Of a stretch of 64,000 bases of DNA, positions 7,289 to 18,269 are shown in pieces (position 1 is the stretch's first letter; the number at the start of each line of letters is the position of its first letter). Made by a program: the position numbers and the translations under genes. Source of the stretch: Bacteroidota bacterium (GTDB taxonomy: Bacteria; Bacteroidota; Bacteroidia; Chitinophagales; Chitinophagaceae); contig JAKQGX010000027.1 in NCBI GenBank assembly GCA_029573235.1, forward strand, positions 1-64,000, read 5' to 3'. Under the pieces are notes generated by a model. The model had not been told where the DNA came from. It worked only from the letters and a program-made list of their open reading frames with translations, and searched no databases.

Positions 7289-8509
7289 TTAATGGTGTGA
7301 CCATTCTACTGCATCGAGGTCAACTCCTTCTTTAAACATTTCCCAAAGAGGGCTCATTTCACGCAGCTTGGTTACGGTATTTTTAATAGCGTTAATGGTA
7401 TAGTCTATTTGATCTTTGGTAGTAAAACGTCCTAGCCCGAAACGCAAGGAGCTATGAGCAAGGTCGTCGCCTAAGCCGAGTGCTTTTAAAACATACGATG
7501 GCTCCAACGATGCAGAGGTACAAGCTGAACCGCTTGATAAAGCAATATCTTTATTAAAGCCCATCATCAACCCTTCACCTTCTACATATTTGAACGAAAT
7601 ATTAGAAACGTGTGGCAATCGGCTATTGACATTTCCGTTCACGTATGATTCTTCTAATTCTTTCAGAGAGGTTTCCAAATAGTCCCGTAATTGGCTGAGG
7701 CGAGCGGCTTCGTCAGCCATCTCCAATCGGCAAATTTCACAGGCCTTTCCAAGTCCTACAATGCCGGGTACATTTAGCGTACCGCTGCGCATACCGCGCT
7801 CATGCCCGCCGCCGTCCATTTGGGCAGTTACTTTCACACGGGGGTTTTTACGACGCACATATAACACGCCTACACCTTTTGGTCCGTACATTTTATGTCC
7901 GCTGAAGGCCATCATGTCAATGCCATCTGCCAACACATCCACCGGTATTTTACCCACTGCTTGTGTTGCATCAGTGAAGAATAGAATGTTGTGCTTTTTA
8001 GCTATCGTACTGATTTCACGTATAGGTTGCACTACACCGATTTCGTTATTGCCGTACATGATAGCTATCAATATGGTCTTGTCGGTTATGGCTTTTTCTA
8101 ACTCATTTAGGTCTATCAATCCATCTTCCTGTACGGGAAGGTAGGTCACTTGACCGCCTAATTTTTCAATATGCTTGCAAGTGTCCAATACTGCTTTGTG
8201 TTCGGTAACGCAGGTAATAATGTGATTGCCTTTGGAAGCATACATTTCAAAAACGCCTTTAAGTGCAAGGTTATCAGCTTCGGTGGCTCCGGAAGTAAAA
8301 ATGATTTCTTTGGGGTCGGCATTAATTAATTTGGCTACTTGCTCTCTGGCATAATCTACGGCTTCTTCGGCTACCCATCCGAAAGGGTGGTTGCGGCTGG
8401 CAGCGTTTCCAAATTTGTCGGTAAAATAGGGTAACATCGCTTCCAGCACACGTGGATCCATGGGAGTAGTAGCATTGTTGTCTAAATATATCGGCAGTTT
8501 CAGTTCCAT
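7289..8509 (-). CDS. iscS: Cysteine desulfurase IscS
   Basis: This 406-residue fold-type I PLP enzyme has the PLP lysine K206 in [11 protein letters not shown], the conserved GATEADN segment and the catalytic cysteine C330 in the [13 protein letters not shown] loop of group I desulfurases. It converts L-cysteine to alanine and gives persulfide sulfur to IscU and to thio-modification pathways. It is the first gene of the isc operon, divergent from the methylmalonyl-CoA epimerase gene. Confidence 0.95.
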
Positions 8510-9640: not shown

Positions 9641-10216
9641 ATTCATGGAAGGATTCACCGGCATCTGTGATAAATATTGATATTCGGTGCCCAACAATTC
9701 AATAGCCTTTTTCCAAACCAATGTCGATGGCGTCTCAAAAACGATGGCGGCATTAGCAGCAGAGACAATCCAAGCTCCTTGTTCTATCTCAGCCTCCAAT
9801 TGTCCGGCACCCCATCCGGAGTATCCCAAGAATATTTTTAAGGATGTAATGGGAGCCTTTTCTTTCTGCAATAACTGCTCTAATCTTTCGAAATCTCCAC
9901 CCCAGCATATATTTTCTGGCAATAGCGAACCTTTTAAAAGATGGGGTAGAGCATGTACAAAATGTAGGGTATTCATTTGTACAGGACCGCCTTTGTAAAT
10001 AAGTTGCGACACGTTGCCCGTCTCCGGAAGCACTTCAGATATAGAAGCATCTAAGGGTTGATTGAGCACATAACCCACCGCGCCTTCCGAAGTATATTCG
10101 CAAAGTAGAATGACGGTTCTTAAAAAATTATTATCGTTCAGAAAAGGTGCCGCAATCAACAATTTGCCGGCAGCAGGAGGTATTTGAGGCGGTTGTTTGA
10201 ATGTATATGTAGGCAT
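9638..10216 (-). CDS. YqgE/AlgH family protein (DUF179)
   Basis: This 192-residue protein matches the YqgE/AlgH family: AGKLLIAAPFLNDNNFLRTVIL at the N-terminus gives the family pattern of P-x-L-x-D-x-x-F-x-R-x-V, then GAVGYVLNQPL, GGPVQ and a central GYSGWGAGQLEAEI motif. The family is widespread and structurally known. Its molecular role is not established, although AlgH was first described as a regulator of alginate synthesis. The product is cytoplasmic with no signal peptide. The downstream lipoprotein gene follows after 25 bases. Confidence 0.9.
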   Translation of the reverse strand: MPTYTFKQPPQIPPAAGKLLIAAPFLNDNNFLRTVILLCEYTSEGAVGYVLNQPLDASISEVLPETGNVSQLIYKGGPVQMNTLHFVHALPHLLKGSLLPENICWGGDFERLEQLLQKEKAPITSLKIFLGYSGWGAGQLEAEIEQGAWIVSAANAAIVFETPSTLVWKKAIELLGTEYQYLSQMPVNPSMN

Positions 10217-10479
10217 TGTAAATAATGGTCTTTGTGGCTAACGGCGCTGTGCAAAATAACAGTCGTTCGTTGTGGTGGATAGTACAGTGTAGTTGTGCTA
10301 CGATGAACAGCAGAATAAATATAGTTTTATTTTTTTGAAGAGAAACGCTACGATTGAATGTATTGCTGATGACTACTTGAATCAACGAAAAAGTCATATT
10401 GAAAATGCAATAAGAGAAGGGCAAACAATAAAGTAAGAGAGAAAGATGCAGTATCGCACTATTTGCGCATCGGTATTAG

Positions 10480-10487
10480 TATTTTTG
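10480..10487 (+). promoter_or_regulatory. -7 element of the ZIP transporter gene
   Basis: TATTTTTG matches TAnnTTTG, 21 bases before the ATG at 10509. A TTG at 10463-10465 is closer (14 bases) than the usual 19-21 spacing. Confidence 0.4.
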
Positions 10488-10508
10488 TAGCTTATCTATT
10501 ATTCCTTC

Positions 10509-11246
10509 ATGTACCTGCTACACAATCTACTCTTGTTTATTCTCACCCTCGCGGGCGGATTAGCGGCGTTGAAATATAAAGTGGTGGAAAAACATATCCA
10601 CTTGGTATTGGCTTTTTCCGGAGCTTTTTTATTGAGCATTACGGTACTTCATCTATTGCCCGAAACCTTTGAAGAGAACGGGCATAAAGCCGGTATATTT
10701 ATTTTACTTGGTTTTTTTCTACAGTTGCTCATACAGCAGTTCACGCATGGGGTAGAGCATGGGCATATACACACCCAAGCGTTAGACCACCACGCACATA
10801 GTCATGCTGTGCATTTTAATTCCATCTTTTTGGGTCTGGTGGTACACGCTTTTATGGAAGGGTTGCCGTTGGGTTTTGAATACCGCACCGCAGCAACAGA
10901 GCCCTCATTATACTTGGCAGTAGCGGCGCACAAGCTACCGGAAGTAATATTGCTGGCTACTTTGGCACAAACGGTAAAACCTACAAAAACGGTTATATTC
11001 ATTGTGTTGCTTTTCTCAATGATAACGCCTTTAGGCTCAGTGACAGCACTCTTACTGGGCGAGAACTATACGATTGTGAGCGAAGGGGTAGCCATTGTGA
11101 TACCAATAGTAGCTGGGGTTTTCATCCATATTGCCACCACTATCTTTTTTGAAAGTGGTACTAAACATCACATGCTTACCTTCTCCAAAATATTAACCAT
11201 CGTTTTGGGTGTTGGTGCCGGATTACTCACTATGTTTTTTGAATAA
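10509..11246 (+). CDS. ZIP family divalent metal transporter
   Basis: This 245-residue integral membrane protein has about eight hydrophobic segments. The two metal-site helices are recognisable: HAFMEGLPLG (near 118-127) and AAHKLPEV (near 138-146), both carrying the His/Glu ligands of ZIP carriers. A histidine-rich loop (HGVEHGHIHT...HHAHSHAVH, about 81-103) precedes them. ZIP proteins move Zn, Fe or Mn into the cytoplasm. The specificity cannot be read from the sequence. It is transcribed alone. Confidence 0.9.
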   Translation: MYLLHNLLLFILTLAGGLAALKYKVVEKHIHLVLAFSGAFLLSITVLHLLPETFEENGHKAGIFILLGFFLQLLIQQFTHGVEHGHIHTQALDHHAHSHAVHFNSIFLGLVVHAFMEGLPLGFEYRTAATEPSLYLAVAAHKLPEVILLATLAQTVKPTKTVIFIVLLFSMITPLGSVTALLLGENYTIVSEGVAIVIPIVAGVFIHIATTIFFESGTKHHMLTFSKILTIVLGVGAGLLTMFFE

Positions 11247-11310
11247 TGCTTGTTTCTTAAATATACCATAATGGCACTGAGGCAAACACTGCATTAATAG
11301 GCAAATAGCC

Positions 11311-11318
11311 TACCTTTA
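11311..11318 (+). promoter_or_regulatory. -7-like element directly before the TraB/GumN start
   Basis: TACCTTTA (one mismatch to TAnnTTTG) ends 5 bases before the ATG at 11324, implying a leaderless or nearly leaderless mRNA. Confidence 0.35.
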
Positions 11319-11323
11319 TTCGC

Positions 11324-12214
11324 ATGAGTAAATGTTGGATTTTTTTATGGAGTTGTCTTTCGTTCATGGTTGGGCATCTCCCTATGAAGGCGCAGGTTTC
11401 AAAAGTATCGCCTGCAAAAAACCACTCGTTACTGTGGAAGATTTCTGGCAATCAAATGAAGCAACCCTCTTATTTGTTTGGCACCATGCACATGATTTGT
11501 GCCGATGATTATCTCTGGACACCAGCTATGAAGCGCAGTCTCAGTGCTACTCGTGAGGTTTGTTTTGAAATGGATATGGATGACCCGATGGTAATGATGC
11601 AAGTAGCACAAGGAATGGTTAACATCAATGGGAAAGCGTTGTATGAATATTTCTCGCCCGAGGATTATCAAGCAGTCGTCAATCATTTTTCTAAAAAATT
11701 ACAGTTAGATACCGCCATGTTGGCTCGGCTGAAACCATCAGCGCTAATGATGATGATGGCTACCGAAGGAGTGACTTGCGCCCATACTGTGTCATACGAG
11801 AATAATATTATGGAAGCAGCCAAAGAGTTGAAAATTGATATTACTGGATTGGAAACACCCCAAGAGCAATTGGCTTTATTGGAAAGCATTCCAGCGGATA
11901 CGATAGCAGGAGAAATTGCTAGAAGTATCAAAGAAAAAGGGGAAGGTAGCAGCAACGAATATCAAGCCCTCGTGCAAGCGTATAAGCAGCAAGACCTGGC
12001 AACACTATTTACACTGATGACTCAAAATTCGAAAAGCAGCCTCAACTTAAACACCTTTATTGTTGAGCGCAATGCCAAATGGATTGAGCGTATGGAAGAG
12101 CGAATGGATCAACAAGCGGTATTCTTTGCTGTAGGTGCAGGGCATTTATGGGGCGAAAAAGGTGTGATTCAACTATTGAAAGACAAAGGATATACAGTAG
12201 TGCCTGTAAAGTAA
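11324..12214 (+). CDS. TraB/GumN family protein
   Basis: This 296-residue protein has an N-terminal signal peptide (cleavage near MKAQ, residue 24) and the family motif YLFGTMHM at 50-57. The second conserved site, AVGAGHLWGEKG, lies near 268-280. TraB/GumN proteins are related to the metal-dependent Tiki/EreA-like superfamily and are suspected hydrolases or proteases. No substrate is known. The product is likely periplasmic. Its TAA stop directly abuts the stop codon of the convergent receiver gene, so the two genes share no spacer. Confidence 0.85.
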   Translation: MSKCWIFLWSCLSFMVGHLPMKAQVSKVSPAKNHSLLWKISGNQMKQPSYLFGTMHMICADDYLWTPAMKRSLSATREVCFEMDMDDPMVMMQVAQGMVNINGKALYEYFSPEDYQAVVNHFSKKLQLDTAMLARLKPSALMMMMATEGVTCAHTVSYENNIMEAAKELKIDITGLETPQEQLALLESIPADTIAGEIARSIKEKGEGSSNEYQALVQAYKQQDLATLFTLMTQNSKSSLNLNTFIVERNAKWIERMEERMDQQAVFFAVGAGHLWGEKGVIQLLKDKGYTVVPVK

Positions 12215-12619
12215 TTATGAATTGAGCTTGTCCATCAAATCGATGAGCACATCTTTTTTGATGGGTTTATTTAGAAAAGCGTTTACCGATTTGTATCGTT
12301 GCGATTGTATCATGTCATTTTGATTGACAGATGAAGTCAGCAAGTTGATGATGTATGTTGATTGCTTGGGTTCCGGAATGTTTTTTTCAAAATGTTCGAT
12401 GAAATCAAATCCAGTCATCAAAGGCATTTGTATATCTACTAGTATGATGGTTCGGTGGGCATCTACACTACTGTTTTGTATGTGCTCAAATGCAGCAGAA
12501 GTGCTCATAAACGTATGGCATGAAACGGCACGACCCGAGCCAACGATGATCTTTTCACCAATGAAGCAATCTAGTTTGCTATCGTCTATTAGAATAAAGT
12601 GAAATTGTTCTGTTGCCAT
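12215..12619 (-). CDS. Single-domain response regulator (CheY-like)
   Basis: This 134-residue receiver domain has no output domain. The acidic pair D12/D13, the phospho-acceptor D62 (LVDIQMP), T95 and K118 are all present, so it should accept phosphate. It is the last gene of the E1-acyltransferase-kinase operon, 2 bases after the hybrid kinase gene, and is a likely phosphorelay partner of the two upstream kinases. Final output would need another protein. Confidence 0.88.
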   Translation of the reverse strand: MATEQFHFILIDDSKLDCFIGEKIIVGSGRAVSCHTFMSTSAAFEHIQNSSVDAHRTIILVDIQMPLMTGFDFIEHFEKNIPEPKQSTYIINLLTSSVNQNDMIQSQRYKSVNAFLNKPIKKDVLIDLMDKLNS

Positions 12620-12621
12620 AA

Positions 12622-13713
12622 TTATTTACCCGGTAATGTAATAACGAATTCAGACCCCTTTCCTATTTCGGAGCAAACCAAAATATCTCCTTTTAGTTTC
12701 AACAAGGCATCTTTTACATTGTACAATCCAAAGCCCGATCCGGTTGAAGATTCAGAAGCTCTAAAAAACATGTTGAAGATTTTATCGAGGTATTTTGTTT
12801 CAATGCCGATGCCGTTGTCTGCAACTTTTATGGTGGCAATACCATTATTGACTTGCACGGAAAGGTTTACAAATTTATTTACTTCAGCATCTTTTTGATA
12901 TTTAATAGCGTTTGATAACAGGTTATTAATGATTAGGTGCAGCAATACACGGCTGTTATGATAGGTTTCAACTTGTTGTACCGTAATGGTTAATTTAATA
13001 TTTGCCAGTGCTAATTGAATATTGTGAAGCTCTGCAAGTTCTTGACACAAGTTTTTGAAATCAATTTCTTCAATTTCTATGGTGCCTCTTTGAAGGCTGT
13101 AATATGCGTGGATGTTTACAATGAGGTCGTTTACTTGTAAAGCCGATTCTTCCATCATATTGCAGATGCTATGCAACTCTTCCATACTTTGAGTTTGCTT
13201 CATGATTTCTAAAGCACCTAAGATGCTCAATATCGGACCTCTTATATCGTGAGTAACACTATAAGCAAATTTGTCTAAATCCTCATTGGCCTTTTGTAAT
13301 TCTTCATTCTTCTTTCGAAGCATGAAGCCTGTCATGTAATATTTATAGGCTTGCTCAATGGCTGCATGAATTTCCTCTTGCTGGTAAGGCTTTGTCAAGT
13401 ACCGAAACACTTGACCTTTGTTGATGGAATCCACAACGGCCGCTACATCCGTAAACCCGGTAATAAGTATCCGTACAGGGTCTGGGTATTCAGAAGCAAT
13501 GTCTTCAAAAAACTGGGTTCCGGTAATGTCCGGCATACGCTGGTCGCAGAAGATGACATGGGTATCGGGATGTTGCTGTAACAAAGCCTTTCCTTCAGTA
13601 GCAGAATTGGCTAAAAGAATGTTGTATTCAGTTCGAAATGCTGCTTTAAACCCGAAGAGGTTGTTAGACTCGTCGTCAATATAGAGGACTTTTATTTTTT
13701 CGGTAGTATCCAA
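12622..13713 (-). CDS. Receiver-histidine kinase hybrid (REC-HisKA-HATPase)
   Basis: Residues 1-125 form a receiver of the RpfG-like subclass (D13/D14, D57 in FCDQRMP, K108). A coiled segment follows, then a HisKA domain with H155 in SVTHDIRGP and a full ATPase domain (LLSNAIKY, VADNGIGI, GSGFGLYNV). There is no membrane segment, so it is soluble. The start is a TTG at 13713, only 2 bases after the stop of the membrane kinase gene, implying translational coupling. It probably receives phosphate at D57 and controls its own kinase output to the lone receiver downstream. The receiver is paralogous to the one at 17808-18269. Confidence 0.88.
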   Translation of the reverse strand: MDTTEKIKVLYIDDESNNLFGFKAAFRTEYNILLANSATEGKALLQQHPDTHVIFCDQRMPDITGTQFFEDIASEYPDPVRILITGFTDVAAVVDSINKGQVFRYLTKPYQQEEIHAAIEQAYKYYMTGFMLRKKNEELQKANEDLDKFAYSVTHDIRGPILSILGALEIMKQTQSMEELHSICNMMEESALQVNDLIVNIHAYYSLQRGTIEIEEIDFKNLCQELAELHNIQLALANIKLTITVQQVETYHNSRVLLHLIINNLLSNAIKYQKDAEVNKFVNLSVQVNNGIATIKVADNGIGIETKYLDKIFNMFFRASESSTGSGFGLYNVKDALLKLKGDILVCSEIGKGSEFVITLPGK

Positions 13714-13715
13714 CG

Positions 13716-15887
13716 TTAAATATTTGTTTCTGGTGGTGGTGCTTTCACCGGTAGTGTAAAAATAAATTCGGTACCGACACCAAACGTAGAGTTTATATCA
13801 ATTTTCCCTTCATGCTTCATGATGGTTTTCCAAGAAATAGAAAGCCCCAAACCGGTGCCCAGCCCTACCTGTTTGGTTGTGAAGAATGGCTCAAATAAAC
13901 GTTTCTGCACTTCATCTGTCATGCCTATTCCATTATCTTTGATGGATACGATAAGATGGTCGTTTGACTTTTTGGTCGTAATGGTAATAATGCCATTGGG
14001 CGCTTCTTTCCACCGCTCATGAATGGCATGAATGGCATTGGTGATAGTGTTTAAAAATACTTGGTTTAGCTTTCCCGGATAGCATTCTATCACAGCATCA
14101 GATGTATAGTTTTTTTCTACCGTTATAGTTCCGTTCAATTGATTATTCACAAGTGTTAGGGTAGCGTCAAGTCCTTCGTTGATGTTAGCCGGTTTAACCC
14201 CTTCTTCGTCCAGTCTCGAGAACAGTCGAAGCCCTTTGACTATTTCTGAAGTGCGTACAGCACCTTCATTGATGCCTTTTATTAAAAAGTCTATTTCAGA
14301 AAGGATATAGTCGTAATCTTCTTCTTCTTTTAGTTGCTTAATCTTCGCTAGTTTTTCTTCGCTACTTCCCTCTTGCAGTCCTATTGCTTCTACTTTCGCT
14401 AGAATATCTTTTATCGTGTTGATATCTCTTTTTAAAGGATTGACATTAGAAGTTACAAAATTGATAGGGTTGTTTATTTCATGAGCTATGCCCGCTGTCA
14501 GTTGCCCCAAAGAAGCCATCTTTTCAGATTCTACCAGATGTGTTTCGGCTTCTCTCAAATCTTTTAACGTTTTTTCTAAAGCAGTATTAGATTCTTGTAG
14601 TTCTTTGGTGCGTGCTAAAACATTGGACTCTAAGATGACGTTTTGCTCCCGTACTAAACGTTCCTTTTCTTCTGCTGCAGCTATAGATTGTTGTTGGAAA
14701 GACTCTTTCTGCATTTTGTATAGGTTTATCTTATCCGCCACGGCTATAGAAAGTAGGATGATGGTAGATGCAGAACCCAATTGCAAGATGGAAATGGTCA
14801 ATAAATTGTAGGGTAATACGCCCACATCTTTTAATACAAAAATGATAACACTCAGCAAGAATAATACCCATGCTATCAAAAACACAAAAGCAGGGCGGTA
14901 CTTGTGTTTTACCCAAATATAAACACCCGCCCATATCAGCATAATGGCCAAGGGAAGCCCCAGTATGTTCAGAAAATTATAGCTGATGGTCTTATTGCCG
15001 AAAAATGCATTTAGGGTAAGGATAATGTACAATAGATTTACCACACTCAATAACTTATTGAGGCGAGGTACATAGTCTTTGATAAAAAGAAAATGGCGGG
15101 TGAACCCAATGGAGCTAATTGCCGTAAGGGTAGGGAATATGTATAGGGATATGCTCTCAAAAAATGGACTGTTAAACCAAAGGTACTTATAGCCAAGCCC
15201 GGTAATGTTGAGTTGTACCAATCCTACCGAAATGATGTAAAAGATAAAGTACAGGTAGCTTTTGTCTTTGGTGCTGTAAAATATGAAGAGGTTGTAAAAG
15301 AGAATGCCTAATAGTATTCCGTAATACACCCCTCTCAAGGTGTTTTTTCTCAATTCATACACCATGGTGCTTTCATCACTATCTAGTTTTATTGGCACAA
15401 TAAACTGTGTTGGGGTAGTTGCTTTTAGGTAAAAATGGCTAACACTACCATTGGGAATGTTGATGAAAAACGCAGGATTTGAGATGGCTATTTGCCGACT
15501 CCAAAAAGGTTGTGTCTTTGAAACGCTATCGATTTGGTAATTTCCATCTTGGGTTTCTTGAAAAAGCACGACATTTTCTAAAAAGGCATTTTCAATATTC
15601 AAAATAAACCGGTCTTTTGGCTGGTCGTTGGCAATGGTAAAGTGAAACCAAATAGCTCCTTTTTGAGTGCCCAAGTTGGGTACCGGCTCATTAGAAGGTT
15701 TGAAATGGGTGGCATTGCGAGCCCCCCAGTAGGTGAGGGTATCAGCCTCGTCAATGAGGATTTCTATTTGTTTCCCGATGTATTGGTTAAGACTGCTACT
15801 GGTATAAATAGTAGGGTGCGGTGATGCACTAACCTTTAATATCGTGAAGACAAGAATGAATAGGAGGAGATGCTTCTTTTTAATCAT
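13716..15887 (-). CDS. 7TMR-DISM sensor histidine kinase
   Basis: The 723-residue product has a signal peptide, then a periplasmic 7TMR-DISMED2 beta-domain (about 30-165, WFHFTI and ending YLKATT), seven transmembrane helices (about 180-395), a coiled coil (395-455), a HisKA domain with GIAHEINNP near 465-473 and an ATPase domain (NTITNAIHAI, IKDNGIGM, GLGTGLGLSI). DISMED2 domains resemble carbohydrate- and ligand-binding folds, so it probably senses an extracytoplasmic small molecule. Its ATG overlaps the acyltransferase stop (ATGA), tying synthesis of the sensor to that enzyme. No receiver is attached; the likely partners are the two downstream gene products. Confidence 0.9.
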   Translation of the reverse strand: MIKKKHLLLFILVFTILKVSASPHPTIYTSSSLNQYIGKQIEILIDEADTLTYWGARNATHFKPSNEPVPNLGTQKGAIWFHFTIANDQPKDRFILNIENAFLENVVLFQETQDGNYQIDSVSKTQPFWSRQIAISNPAFFINIPNGSVSHFYLKATTPTQFIVPIKLDSDESTMVYELRKNTLRGVYYGILLGILFYNLFIFYSTKDKSYLYFIFYIISVGLVQLNITGLGYKYLWFNSPFFESISLYIFPTLTAISSIGFTRHFLFIKDYVPRLNKLLSVVNLLYIILTLNAFFGNKTISYNFLNILGLPLAIMLIWAGVYIWVKHKYRPAFVFLIAWVLFLLSVIIFVLKDVGVLPYNLLTISILQLGSASTIILLSIAVADKINLYKMQKESFQQQSIAAAEEKERLVREQNVILESNVLARTKELQESNTALEKTLKDLREAETHLVESEKMASLGQLTAGIAHEINNPINFVTSNVNPLKRDINTIKDILAKVEAIGLQEGSSEEKLAKIKQLKEEEDYDYILSEIDFLIKGINEGAVRTSEIVKGLRLFSRLDEEGVKPANINEGLDATLTLVNNQLNGTITVEKNYTSDAVIECYPGKLNQVFLNTITNAIHAIHERWKEAPNGIITITTKKSNDHLIVSIKDNGIGMTDEVQKRLFEPFFTTKQVGLGTGLGLSISWKTIMKHEGKIDINSTFGVGTEFIFTLPVKAPPPETNI

Positions 15888-16585
15888 TGGAGGGTAGAAG
15901 TTCGGTTAATAGTAATGTCGTATTTTACGATGGTTTCCCCCTTTTGACCTAATACCGATGCGGTGCTAATAGGGGAATCATAGAAGTAAATTATTTCATT
16001 ATAAAACTCCGATTTGGGGTCGATATGGTGCAGGTCTTTTACTACGAGTGCCGTTGCAATAAGATCGAGTTTCGGATATACAAACCTACCCTCATTGCCA
16101 ATAGAGGTTTCGATTTCAAATCCCGAATCTTGACACATTTGCACAGTATAGGGCGCGCAGAGCACAAACAAGCTGTCCATACCAATATGTCGGGCAATTG
16201 CTACGCCTATTTTGGTTAAAAACAAACTTACCCCTTTGCCGGCTATCGATTTGGCATTCCATAATCCACAAATTTCGCCGGTAACTTTTCCATCGGCATA
16301 ATGTTCAACTAGTGTATGCACTTTAGGGTCAACGATGGCTACTGCTTCTTGTATAGGTAAATAAAAGCCCTCACTTACCATGTGGACACGCTCCCCACCC
16401 ACTACTTCGCCCGTTTCTTCATCTTCAACTAAGACCACATAAACGCCAGGGTTAAAAAACCAATCCGTACGGGCTGAAGTTACTTTCGTAACACCATAGT
16501 CTTTAAGCACATTGGCATGACCTTCTGCGAATTTTTCACAAGATTTTAAATCATCTATAGCTCTAAATACCCTTATAGACAACAT
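15884..16585 (-). CDS. GNAT-fold acyltransferase resembling LuxI/FeeM-type N-acyl synthases
   Basis: This 233-residue soluble protein lacks a signal peptide. A beta-hairpin with GGERVH (63-68), a GEICGLW strand (103-109), a helix with IARHIG (130-135) and a CQDSGFEI ending (151-158) reproduce the arrangement seen in the acyl-homoserine lactone synthase and FeeM N-acyl amino acid synthase branch of GNATs, which lack the usual Q/RxxGxG acetyl-CoA loop. By analogy it could transfer an acyl group from ACP or CoA to an amino-acid-like acceptor. This assignment is by pattern only. It sits between the E1-like gene (34-base gap) and the sensor kinase (4-base overlap), which suggests it makes or modifies a signal. 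A plain GNAT with another role is the alternative. Confidence 0.6.
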   Translation of the reverse strand: MLSIRVFRAIDDLKSCEKFAEGHANVLKDYGVTKVTSARTDWFFNPGVYVVLVEDEETGEVVGGERVHMVSEGFYLPIQEAVAIVDPKVHTLVEHYADGKVTGEICGLWNAKSIAGKGVSLFLTKIGVAIARHIGMDSLFVLCAPYTVQMCQDSGFEIETSIGNEGRFVYPKLDLIATALVVKDLHHIDPKSEFYNEIIYFYDSPISTASVLGQKGETIVKYDITINRTSTLQ

Positions 16586-16619
16586 TTTGTAATTGGTTTT
16601 TTGTAAAAACGGTAGGGTA

Positions 16620-17702
16620 TTACTGAATTATCTGGTCTAAATCTACATAAAACCTTCCGGATTTTTCCAATTCATTTAAGAAAATTCTTCTGATTACATC
16701 TGCCGTAACAGCACCACCCAGCAATACCGAAGATGCCAATTGCGGCCAGCTGCTAATAGTCTTTCCTATTTCCTTCATAGAGTATTTTAACTTATCAGAA
16801 GTGTTATCAAAATCAATAATCTTCATCACCGTTTGTAAGCGTTCTTCAGGTGTTTGCTTTTGTAGTACTTCTACGGTGAGCCCCTCAGCTAACCCGTGTA
16901 ATAAAGGACGGTTTGGTTCAAGGTCAAAACGTTCGATGTCCATCATCCCTCTGTCATTAGTGTCCATTACAACGGGTATTTTCATACTACGAGCTAAAAG
17001 CCTACTGCTTATTTTTTGTTCAATGCCATCGCATACTTCTACCAGCAAATCCAGAGTACCTCCTTCGTTAAAAAAGGAATCGATATTTTCGGCAGTCACA
17101 CCATCACTATAGATGCGCACTTGAAGGAAAGGGTCTATTTCTGCAATATCTCTTGCGGCAATAACGGTTTTGTGGAGCCCCAAATGTTGTACGCCGGTTC
17201 TTATGCGATTGAGGTTACTGAGTTCCAATTCGTCAAAATCTGCAATGTGTAAGGCACCACAAACGCGCTCCATTGCCAGAGAAGTAGCGATGGAATGCCC
17301 TACCGACAAGCCGATGATACCCACTTTTTTGGTCCGCAATAAGGCTTGTTCCTCCGTAGTTAATTTGTATTTATTACGATTGGTGCGTACCTCAATAAAT
17401 TCCTCTTCGTCCAATAAGTGAATGAGTTTGTTCAACCAAGGATAGTACACCCACACCCCATAATCTTCCATGGATATTCCCCCTAAAAAAGCGGCGATTG
17501 CTATCTTCCATTCTTCGTCAGACAAGCGTTGGGTTGGATTCCTGCTTTTCAATAACCCTTTGATTTGGCTGGTCATCTCATCCATAATGGTCAATCCCAA
17601 TGGAGGTGCCGCTTTAAAAGCATCAAAGTCGATAGTATTGGGTTTGAAAATAATCGGCTGATATACAGAATTGTGCTCTGCTTCGTAATTTTTTTTCATC
17701 AT
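16620..17702 (-). CDS. E1-like adenylating enzyme (ThiF/HesA/MoeB superfamily)
   Basis: The 360-residue product has an N-terminal extension of about 120 residues rich in aromatic and charged residues, then an E1/ThiF Rossmann domain: GLSVG at 131-135, D155 and D157, NLNR at 163-166 (ATP-binding Asp and Arg) and D225 in EVCDGIEQK, equivalent to the Mg/ATP Asp. The paired CxxC zinc motifs of MoeB and ThiF are absent, and no ThiS/MoaD-type carrier is nearby, so a thiamine or molybdopterin role is unlikely. It resembles the ThiF half of Rv1355c-type proteins. It is the first gene of a five-gene operon with an acyltransferase and a two-component system. It probably adenylates a carboxylate, but the substrate is unknown. 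Confidence 0.75.
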   Translation of the reverse strand: MMKKNYEAEHNSVYQPIIFKPNTIDFDAFKAAPPLGLTIMDEMTSQIKGLLKSRNPTQRLSDEEWKIAIAAFLGGISMEDYGVWVYYPWLNKLIHLLDEEEFIEVRTNRNKYKLTTEEQALLRTKKVGIIGLSVGHSIATSLAMERVCGALHIADFDELELSNLNRIRTGVQHLGLHKTVIAARDIAEIDPFLQVRIYSDGVTAENIDSFFNEGGTLDLLVEVCDGIEQKISSRLLARSMKIPVVMDTNDRGMMDIERFDLEPNRPLLHGLAEGLTVEVLQKQTPEERLQTVMKIIDFDNTSDKLKYSMKEIGKTISSWPQLASSVLLGGAVTADVIRRIFLNELEKSGRFYVDLDQIIQ

Positions 17703-17807: not shown

Positions 17808-18269
17808 ATGGATGACAAAATAAATATACTATACGTAGATGATGAAGTGAACAACCTCATTTCATTCAAAGCTACTTTTCGCTTGAGATATAAAATTTTC
17901 ACGGCTGAAAGTGCTCGAGATGCTATGAAAATATTGGATGAACACAACATCCACATCATCATTACCGATCAGCGCATGCCGGAGATGACCGGAGTGGAAT
18001 TTTTAGTGAATATCTTGGAAACCCATCCCGACCCCATTCGTATTTTACTTACCGGTTATGCCGATTTGAATGCCGTAATAGACGCCGTTAATAAAGGTAA
18101 AATATACCATTACCTGAGCAAGCCTTGGAATGAAGAGGAACTCAACAATACCATTTTGCAGGCTTTTGAAATCTATAAAAATCGAAAAGACGAAAAAGAA
18201 ATCACCGACAAGCTACAAGTAACCAACGATCAGTTGGAATTCCTCCTTCGACAAAAATTGTTATCTTAA
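17808..18269 (+). CDS. Response regulator: receiver domain with C-terminal coil, no output domain
   Basis: The 153-residue product holds a receiver with D11/D12, phospho-acceptor D54 (ITDQRMP), T82 and K105, and ends in a charged helical tail (about 125-153). It is closely similar to the receiver of the hybrid kinase at 12622-13713 (shared YVDDE-NNL, DQRMP, PDP-RIL, VDA/S-NKG, KP patterns). Such receivers usually carry an HD-GYP, kinase or other output module, which is missing here. The tail may be a dimerising coil. Divergent from the E1-like gene, it is probably another receiver of the same circuit. Confidence 0.85.
   Translation: MDDKINILYVDDEVNNLISFKATFRLRYKIFTAESARDAMKILDEHNIHIIITDQRMPEMTGVEFLVNILETHPDPIRILLTGYADLNAVIDAVNKGKIYHYLSKPWNEEELNNTILQAFEIYKNRKDEKEITDKLQVTNDQLEFLLRQKLLS

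Follow-up and report, generated by a model that had tools for sequence, protein, structure and literature searches.

A stretch of 64,000 nucleotides from a Chitinophagaceae genome (Bacteroidota bacterium, assembly GCA_029573235.1, contig JAKQGX010000027.1; hereafter the window) carries five minus-strand open reading frames (ORFs) at 12215-17702, which encode a ThiF/E1-like enzyme, a GNAT acyltransferase, a 7TMR-DISM membrane histidine kinase, a soluble REC-kinase and a single-REC protein. The question raised by this locus is what the two enzymes make, and whether the membrane kinase encoded beside them reads it. The window belongs to contig C14 of a genome that comprises 2.15 Mb and is 81% complete, and the five genes listed in an earlier short note on this DNA, the original prediction, were recovered at the same positions and with the same intergenic gaps of 34, -4, 2 and 2 bases. 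The analysis described here indicates that the locus probably encodes an autoinducer-type signal synthase together with its cognate receptor kinase, and the observation that carries this answer is that the sensor half of the kinase switches with the synthase, whereas the catalytic half does not.

The acyltransferase was found in 46 of 147 genomes of the same family, the surrounding stretches of all 46 being examined, and in 12 of 296 genomes of a phylum sample, where every match had E < 1e-55. A scan of one genome per species (84,980 species) gave 468 relatives by one short pattern, and the best 80 of these 468 are all from Bacteroidota; the closest named relative among them is locus L103 of a Taibaiella metagenome genome, with an acyltransferase 85% identical to that of the window. 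The 137 pooled loci (the window, 40, 80 and 16) were reduced to 118 non-redundant loci by removal of 16 near-duplicates and of L066, L167 and L204, in which no acyltransferase ORF was picked (in L167 a longer antisense ORF was chosen over the stretch matching the acyltransferase). A 7TMR-DISM kinase lies on the same strand and 3' of the acyltransferase in 114 of the 118 loci, and in the other four the contig ends within 332 bases, so that the adjacency anticipated by the original prediction is conserved in every locus with a long enough contig. Proteins of the 7TMR-DISM type are uncommon (33 matches above the cut-off in 25 of 61 phylum genomes, and a single one, the locus kinase, in the window's incomplete genome), and the pairing of acyltransferase and kinase is therefore far beyond chance.

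The other signalling genes are less constant. The REC-kinase is present in 102 of the 118 loci; of the 16 in which it was not found, four also lack the 7TMR-DISM kinase at a contig end, seven have fewer than 600 bases remaining, and five (L122, L130, L157 (Taibaiella koreensis), L092 and L200) have at least 1.4 kb remaining. At L122 an AsmA-family gene (9920-12634, plus strand) stands at the expected REC-kinase place. A same-strand REC gene was detected in 56 of the 118 loci at the cut-offs used, and a divergent REC gene in 98; the gene at 17808-18269 (plus strand) of the window is thus part of the conserved locus. Two tandem acyltransferase genes occur in L090 (8295-9014 and 9549-10259, minus strand).

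The enzyme encoded beside this acyltransferase-kinase core varies from locus to locus. The tailoring slot is filled by ThiF fused to a flavin oxidase (ThiF-oxidase) in 54 loci, by ThiF in 35, by a class I methyltransferase in ten, by an ICMT in four and by a flavin adenine dinucleotide (FAD)-linked oxidase in two, and is empty or cut in 13; one example each of the methyltransferase, ICMT and FAD-oxidase genes was confirmed by Pfam and the rest were assigned by similarity, and one of the 35 ThiF-alone loci, L073, is doubtful, its 693-aa ThiF protein having another half that matches nothing in Pfam. Seven complete loci with more than 7.5 kb of upstream sequence have no tailoring gene. ThiF precedes the acyltransferase in 60 loci and follows it in 29, and in all 16 loci with a methyltransferase, ICMT or FAD-oxidase gene this gene lies after the acyltransferase and before the kinase. 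The enzymes of the tailoring slot are exchangeable around the acyltransferase-kinase core, and ThiF, which the original prediction included in the operon, falls outside the invariant part, its place being held by other enzymes or by none. These slot enzymes resemble the modifiers of published N-acyl tyrosine clusters, for which the available text of one report names ThiF, nitroreductase and methyltransferase genes (PMC12479983).

Next, the kinase was divided into ectodomain, 7TM (seven-transmembrane) region and catalytic half, and separate trees were built for the 99 loci with complete genes. Mean identity among these loci is 23% in the ectodomain, 37% in the 7TM region and 56% in the catalytic half. 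Tailoring class was labelled for 96 of the 99, leaving out L105 and L095, which are cut by a contig end, and L073. The presence or absence of ThiF needs only three changes on the ectodomain tree and four on the 7TM tree, against nine on the acyltransferase tree and 14 on each of the catalytic-half and REC-kinase trees, with shuffled labels needing about 18 on average and 14-16 at minimum. ThiF versus methyltransferase needs one change on the ectodomain and 7TM trees and seven on each of the acyltransferase, catalytic-half and REC-kinase trees (shuffled labels: about 7.8 on average, minimum 6). Forty bootstraps with 152 columns per part agree with these counts, and IQ-TREE, applied to the ectodomain and the catalytic half, gave 4 and 1 changes for the former versus 13 and 7 for the latter. 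On the 7TM tree the methyltransferase-type sensors make up one side of a branch with a support of 100.

The same behaviour is seen when loci are compared in pairs. Among 235 pairs with catalytic halves at least 70% identical, the 52 with a similar sensor (7TM > 60%) all share a tailoring class, while the 145 with a dissimilar sensor (< 45%) include 59 that differ in the presence of ThiF and 80 that differ in full class. Averaged over 25 pairs with swapped sensors, identity in bins of 20 residues is 12-47% as far as about residue 380 and 49-99% from there on; 26 control pairs reach 26-57% in the ectodomain but 63-88% across the 7TM region. The boundary near residue 380 is the end of the 7TM region, so the half that changes comprises residues 1 to about 380, and in six kinases that were scanned the sensors of both kinds are still of the DISMED2 plus 7TMR-DISM type. 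The claim of the original prediction that the membrane kinase reads the product of the enzymes gains support from this co-switching, and reading itself is something that we infer.

The sensor also follows the enzymes within a single tailoring class. A set of 45 ThiF-oxidase loci gives 52 pairs in which the catalytic halves share at least 75% identity. All 21 of these with a swapped sensor have an acyltransferase at most 47% or an oxidase domain at most 33% identical, and all 28 with a similar sensor have an acyltransferase at least 61% and an oxidase domain at least 57% identical, the remaining three being intermediate. A locus can enter several pairs, which are therefore not independent; six of the 21 involve L196. 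In partial Mantel tests the similarity of the 7TM region correlates with that of the oxidase domain (0.49) and of the acyltransferase (0.39), values reached by none of 1000 permutations in either case, and not with that of the ThiF domain or of the kinase's own catalytic half (both -0.05). For the ectodomain the values are 0.25 for the oxidase, 0.35 for the acyltransferase, 0.21 for the ThiF domain (6 of 1000) and 0.07 for the catalytic half (140 of 1000). Across all 99 loci, with the REC-kinase controlled for, the picture is less clear, the acyltransferase correlating at 0.35 with the ectodomain, 0.26 with the catalytic half and 0.17 with the 7TM region.

A natural replacement is displayed by two Sphingobacterium strains, S. 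paucimobilis HER1398 (L161) and S. tabacisoli h337T (L179, a near-duplicate by acyltransferase that lies outside the 118 and was used for pair comparison only), the first with a methyltransferase in the slot and the second with ThiF. Protein identity is 99-100% for eight of their nine flanking ORFs and 91% for the remaining one, which lies at the edge of the stretch; within the locus the acyltransferases are 90%, the REC-kinases 93% and the divergent REC proteins 92% identical, the kinases 57%. In 200-base bins the DNA is 94-100% identical from position 400 into the beginning of the acyltransferase gene (the first two bins being 90 and 79%), falls to 43-63% over the tailoring gene and the sensor half, rises to 73-84% with the catalytic half and stays there as far as the divergent REC gene, and returns to 97-100% beyond. 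One allele of a polymorphic locus seems, judging by these sequences, to have replaced another.

The changed block in this pair is continuous, and it could be argued that the co-switching is passive, the adjacent tailoring gene and sensor half being exchanged together by recombination between conserved flanks while the kinase senses something else; the position of the methyltransferase, ICMT and FAD-oxidase genes, always between acyltransferase and kinase, would suit such an account. However, a second pair, L118 and L119, differs in two separated modules around a conserved acyltransferase. Their ThiF domains are 76% identical (80-95% in windows over residues 121-301) and their oxidase domains 28%, with an acyltransferase 86% identical between the replaced oxidase domain and the replaced sensor (7TM 38%, catalytic half 87%, REC-kinase 92%), and simple hitchhiking of neighbours is therefore insufficient. 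Moreover, the sensor tracks the oxidase domain and the acyltransferase, and neither the ThiF domain nor the catalytic half to which it is attached, and the exchange stops at the end of the 7TM region. Passive exchange is accordingly considered improbable as the whole explanation. The pairs L118/L119 and L175/L152 each combine ThiF domains of about 77% identity with oxidase domains that share only about 28-30%; at least two oxidase types occur, and these may serve different substrates.

The structure of the acyltransferase (ACYLTRANSFERASE) was predicted with AlphaFold2 from 74 sequences, with a predicted local distance difference test score (pLDDT) of 91.3. The original prediction had likened this GNAT to autoinducer and N-acyl amino acid synthases, and this likeness was borne out by the model: in a Foldseek search of the PDB, ranks 1-13 are all N-acyl-homoserine lactone (AHL) synthases (BjaI, RpaI and MesI) or FeeM, and VIA-align placed FeeM at the top (Z 17.3 over 173 residues), with lower values for RpaI (15.5 over 193), LasI (15.2 over 178) and BjaI (14.9 over 197). 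The protein has no match to any NCBIfam family, a profile search of PDB sequences gave a weak match to serotonin N-acetyltransferase (E 0.94), and a single-sequence search returned noise. The LuxI/FeeM likeness of the acyltransferase is thus supported by the predicted fold and not by the sequence.

The ThiF protein matches NCBIfam NF005901, the Rv1355c family, at 2.8e-132, as expected from the original prediction that it resembles Rv1355c-type proteins. The whole-protein score of 442 bits falls under the cut-off of 476 because half of the model is missing from the window protein; the match is confined to model positions 34-339 of 722, and it is therefore the flavin-oxidase half that is missing. 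In the alignment the protein stops at the junction of the two halves, and the acyltransferase begins 34 bases later. Among 30 strong matches in same-family genomes, 21 lie in open frames of more than 700 residues and nine, including that of the window, in frames of fewer than 400. Since ThiF stands alone in 35 of the 118 loci, among them the near relative L103, an assembly accident in the window is unlikely. A search for the oxidase half was negative at the locus and in the window's genome (81% complete), with G020 and G117 as positive controls; it was likewise negative in the ThiF-only genomes G006 and G113, and no nitroreductase was found in the window's genome at its present completeness. 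A second ThiF-family gene lies outside the window (G000:C14:83348-84055), with a Pfam ThiF score of 148.8 bits against 56.4 for the protein described here.

The role of Rv1355c-type proteins was stated in the original prediction to be unknown, a statement overtaken in 2025, when, as set out in the available text of the report (PMC12856293), Rv1355c was described as TrzS: its ThiF half cyclises N-acyl tryptophan using ATP and its flavin-oxidase half then desaturates the ring, so that TrzS and the acyltransferase TrzA together make N-acyl tryptazolones. In the same source D217 of TrzS is required for cyclisation, and the R540A variant, or limited oxygen, leads to the cyclised but saturated intermediate (PMC12856293). 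Corresponding steps are reported for TyzACB (PMC10404671, available in part). The window protein has its predicted catalytic aspartate, D225, in the motif [VI]E[EV]CD, and this residue is invariant in 30 same-family proteins and in the five other family members aligned.

An E1-like protein could alternatively belong to a ubiquitin-like or anti-phage system, in which the substrate activated by ThiF would be a protein or a different small acid, and the GNAT would be a protein-modifying enzyme. The solved sequence relatives of the ThiF protein are TcdA and UBA5, and PADLOC E1-E2 models do match it weakly (best 2.6e-9); the Rv1355c-family match is far stronger, none of the seven genes scanned with Pfam belongs to an E2, JAB or ubiquitin-like family, and ThiF is replaced or absent in many relatives. 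With the PADLOC matches weak and limited to ThiF, set against NF005901 at 2.8e-132, this very improbable reading was rejected. Other ThiF arrangements were encountered on plasmids. In Streptomyces, the ThiF protein of L185 (5128-6996, plus strand) begins with a GNAT-like region that matches FeeM weakly (E 0.036), and its gene is followed by one for a beta-ketoacyl-ACP synthase 3, while at L186 (5914-7712, plus strand) a ThiF without the oxidase half adjoins a different GNAT (Acetyltransf_3). In Nitratidesulfovibrio, L187 (4101-7025, plus strand) is a 975-codon ThiF-family gene among PEP-CTERM genes.

By analogy with OxzAB, TyzACB and TrzAS, the most likely activity of the acyltransferase-ThiF pair is the synthesis of an N-acyl amino acid followed by its cyclisation to an oxazolone. 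The FeeM/LuxI-fold acyltransferase would N-acylate an amino acid, and the ThiF enzyme would activate the carboxylate with ATP and close the five-membered oxazolone ring, which in the window, with no oxidase partner, should stay saturated; the pair is thus predicted to yield either a saturated acyl-oxazolone or the acyl amino acid in its open form. This product would reach the periplasm or the membrane, there to be bound by the DISMED2/7TM half of the adjacent kinase, and the kinase would start a phosphorelay that may involve the REC-kinase and then the single-REC proteins and end at an output whose gene lies outside the locus, presumably reporting on other cells rather than on the cell itself. 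In relatives, where the slot holds ThiF with a flavin oxidase, another enzyme (methyltransferase, ICMT or FAD oxidase) or nothing and the sensor half matches it, the signals would differ chemically and so define different pherotypes, the slot enzyme finishing the carboxyl end and the sensor half recognising the finished product. Somewhat less firmly than for the locus itself, we lean towards a general form of this proposal, a widespread Bacteroidota cell-cell signalling by N-acyl amino acids with a variously finished carboxyl end (oxazolone, dehydro-oxazolone, methylated or free), in which a strain would change pherotype when its tailoring enzyme and the sensing half of its receptor are replaced as a set.

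The same enzymes might instead make an envelope or membrane lipid, with the kinase monitoring that lipid, or the state of the envelope, in the same cell as a housekeeping feedback. A 7TM sensor could take its ligand from the membrane, and the failure of Pfam to find an output regulator among the locus genes would fit. However, pherotype-like replacement between genomes with nearly identical flanks is what diversifying signal specificity would be expected to produce, and a sensor so much more variable than its catalytic half (23% against 56%) fits diversifying specificity and not a housekeeping lipid shared by all. Feedback of this kind is judged unlikely, though less so than passive exchange.

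Several points weigh against the preferred reading, a signal synthase with its receptor kinase. The product, its export, its binding and a response to cell density are what we infer from the genes. Two ordinary GNATs, 1xeb and ElaA, tie with FeeM in the structural comparison (VIA Z 16.5 and 16.4, over 146 and 145 residues); the acyltransferase matches no Pfam family at E <= 1, the synthase models included, and 41 of its relatives gave weak general GNAT and chance matches and nothing else against Pfam. A TrzA-like neighbour, a hypothetical protein of a Rhodococcus plasmid whose gene is flanked by a GGDEF gene and by one of the Rv1355c family, in a setting that resembles the description of trzAS, aligns with it collinearly but weakly (E 0.0013, probability 18%); adding two near-identical rows left this match as before, and two further proteins encoded beside actinobacterial ThiF genes did not match the acyltransferase. 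The sensor model (pLDDT 92.6) has an ectodomain closest to the periplasmic domain of RetS, a match that names no lipid ligand. The ICMT sensors are ungrouped on the 7TM tree (four changes for four rows), and the oxidase state of ThiF loci (with or without) has to change 13 times on the ectodomain tree and 12 times on the catalytic-half tree, so that it is the sequence of the oxidase, and not its presence, that tracks the sensor. Because tailoring gene, acyltransferase and sensor half are adjacent, cassette exchange may be behind part of the co-switching. No DNA-binding regulator or output domain was found by Pfam in the five genes or the divergent REC. Finally, the tryptazolones of TrzAS are more abundant in cells than in the supernatant, according to the available part of that report (PMC12856293).

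Small-molecule synthases paired with membrane kinases are known from LuxM/LuxN and RpfF/RpfC, and agr is a pherotype system of similar architecture. The locus has in common with LuxM/LuxN and RpfF/RpfC the proposed principle that a kinase responds to a small lipid-like signal, and with the LuxI/AHL synthases and FeeM the predicted fold of the synthase; it differs from all of these in that the Pfam synthase models are unmatched and the putative receptor is a 7TMR-DISM kinase with a RetS-like ectodomain. As in a quorum-sensing pair, the synthase is linked to its predicted receptor (114 of 118 loci) and co-evolves with it. ComQXPA likewise places signal-making genes beside a membrane kinase with a conserved catalytic part and a variable N-terminal part, which in ComP is predicted to interact with the signal (PMC4008528, available in part). 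In contrast to both ComQXPA and agr, the predicted signal is a small acyl amino acid derivative instead of a peptide, specificity would change by exchange of whole tailoring enzymes, and no response regulator with a DNA-binding domain was found in the window's locus by Pfam. The conserved enzymes argue for a small molecule over a peptide signal.

Among the oxazolone systems, TrzAS and TyzACB (both Mycobacterium tuberculosis) and OxzAB (Pseudoalteromonas rubra) likewise have an N-acyltransferase gene beside an Rv1355c-family ThiF cyclase with a conserved aspartate, and most ThiF relatives also carry the fused flavin oxidase. The window agrees with such a pathway in having the gene for a FeeM-fold GNAT 34 bases from that for ThiF, with a predicted amino-acid substrate; it differs in lacking the oxidase half, present in 54 of the 118 relatives, in coupling the pair to a receptor kinase and, from TrzAS, in that its acyltransferase aligns weakly with the TrzA-like neighbour. 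The available text on trzAS notes its position beside cyclic di-GMP genes and offers a signalling role as a suggestion; what N-acyl oxazolones do is described there, in 2025, as a major question still to be resolved (PMC12856293).

Among the papers listed by searches of the open-licence PMC literature no description of the combination of ThiF, GNAT and 7TMR-DISM kinase was recognised, nor one of this receptor, of a tailoring slot with exchangeable enzymes or of such a pherotype pattern. The parts are known singly; as a pair of synthase and receptor kinase they would have a new signal class and an unusual way of changing specificity, with a receptor from a family that has no known ligands of the N-acyl amino acid sort. 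These loci offer a genetically linked candidate receptor for N-acyl oxazolones, and the Sphingobacterium pair with its nearly identical flanks is a natural experiment, which makes the signalling idea testable in named strains. If the proposal is true, Bacteroidota own a large autoinducer family with chemically switchable pherotypes, oxazolone lipids gain a role and a receptor family, and the 7TMR-DISM kinases gain a ligand class.

Table 1. Genes of the locus in the window
Feature	Coordinates	Strand	Matches and remarks
ThiF/E1-like adenylating cyclase, 360 aa	16620..17702	-	Pfam ThiF 5e-15; ThiF half of Rv1355c (TrzS) family
GNAT acyltransferase, 233 aa, predicted N-acyl amino acid synthase	15884..16585	-	FeeM/LuxI-type fold (predicted)
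7TMR-DISM membrane histidine kinase, 723 aa	13716..15887	-	Pfam DISMED2, 7TMR-DISM_7TM, HATPase
Soluble REC-histidine kinase, 363 aa, TTG start	12622..13713	-	Pfam REC, HisKA, HATPase
Single-REC protein, 134 aa, without output domain	12215..12619	-	Pfam REC
Divergent single-REC protein	17808..18269	+	Pfam REC 3.8e-20; absent from the original prediction

In the membrane kinase the DISMED2 ectodomain spans residues 38-168 and the 7TM region residues 182-386, with the catalytic half starting from about residue 440; the HisKA match of this protein, at 23.9 bits, is below the Pfam cut-off of 26.9. A Bacteroidota promoter pattern, counted without a shuffle control, occurred among 72 intergenic regions in three toward the operon and in four toward the REC gene, none of these being in the window, and no conclusion is based on it. 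Upstream of the methyltransferase-type locus L102 lies a gene for a REC-LytTR response regulator (7714-8502, plus strand), which is a possible lead for the output of the relay.

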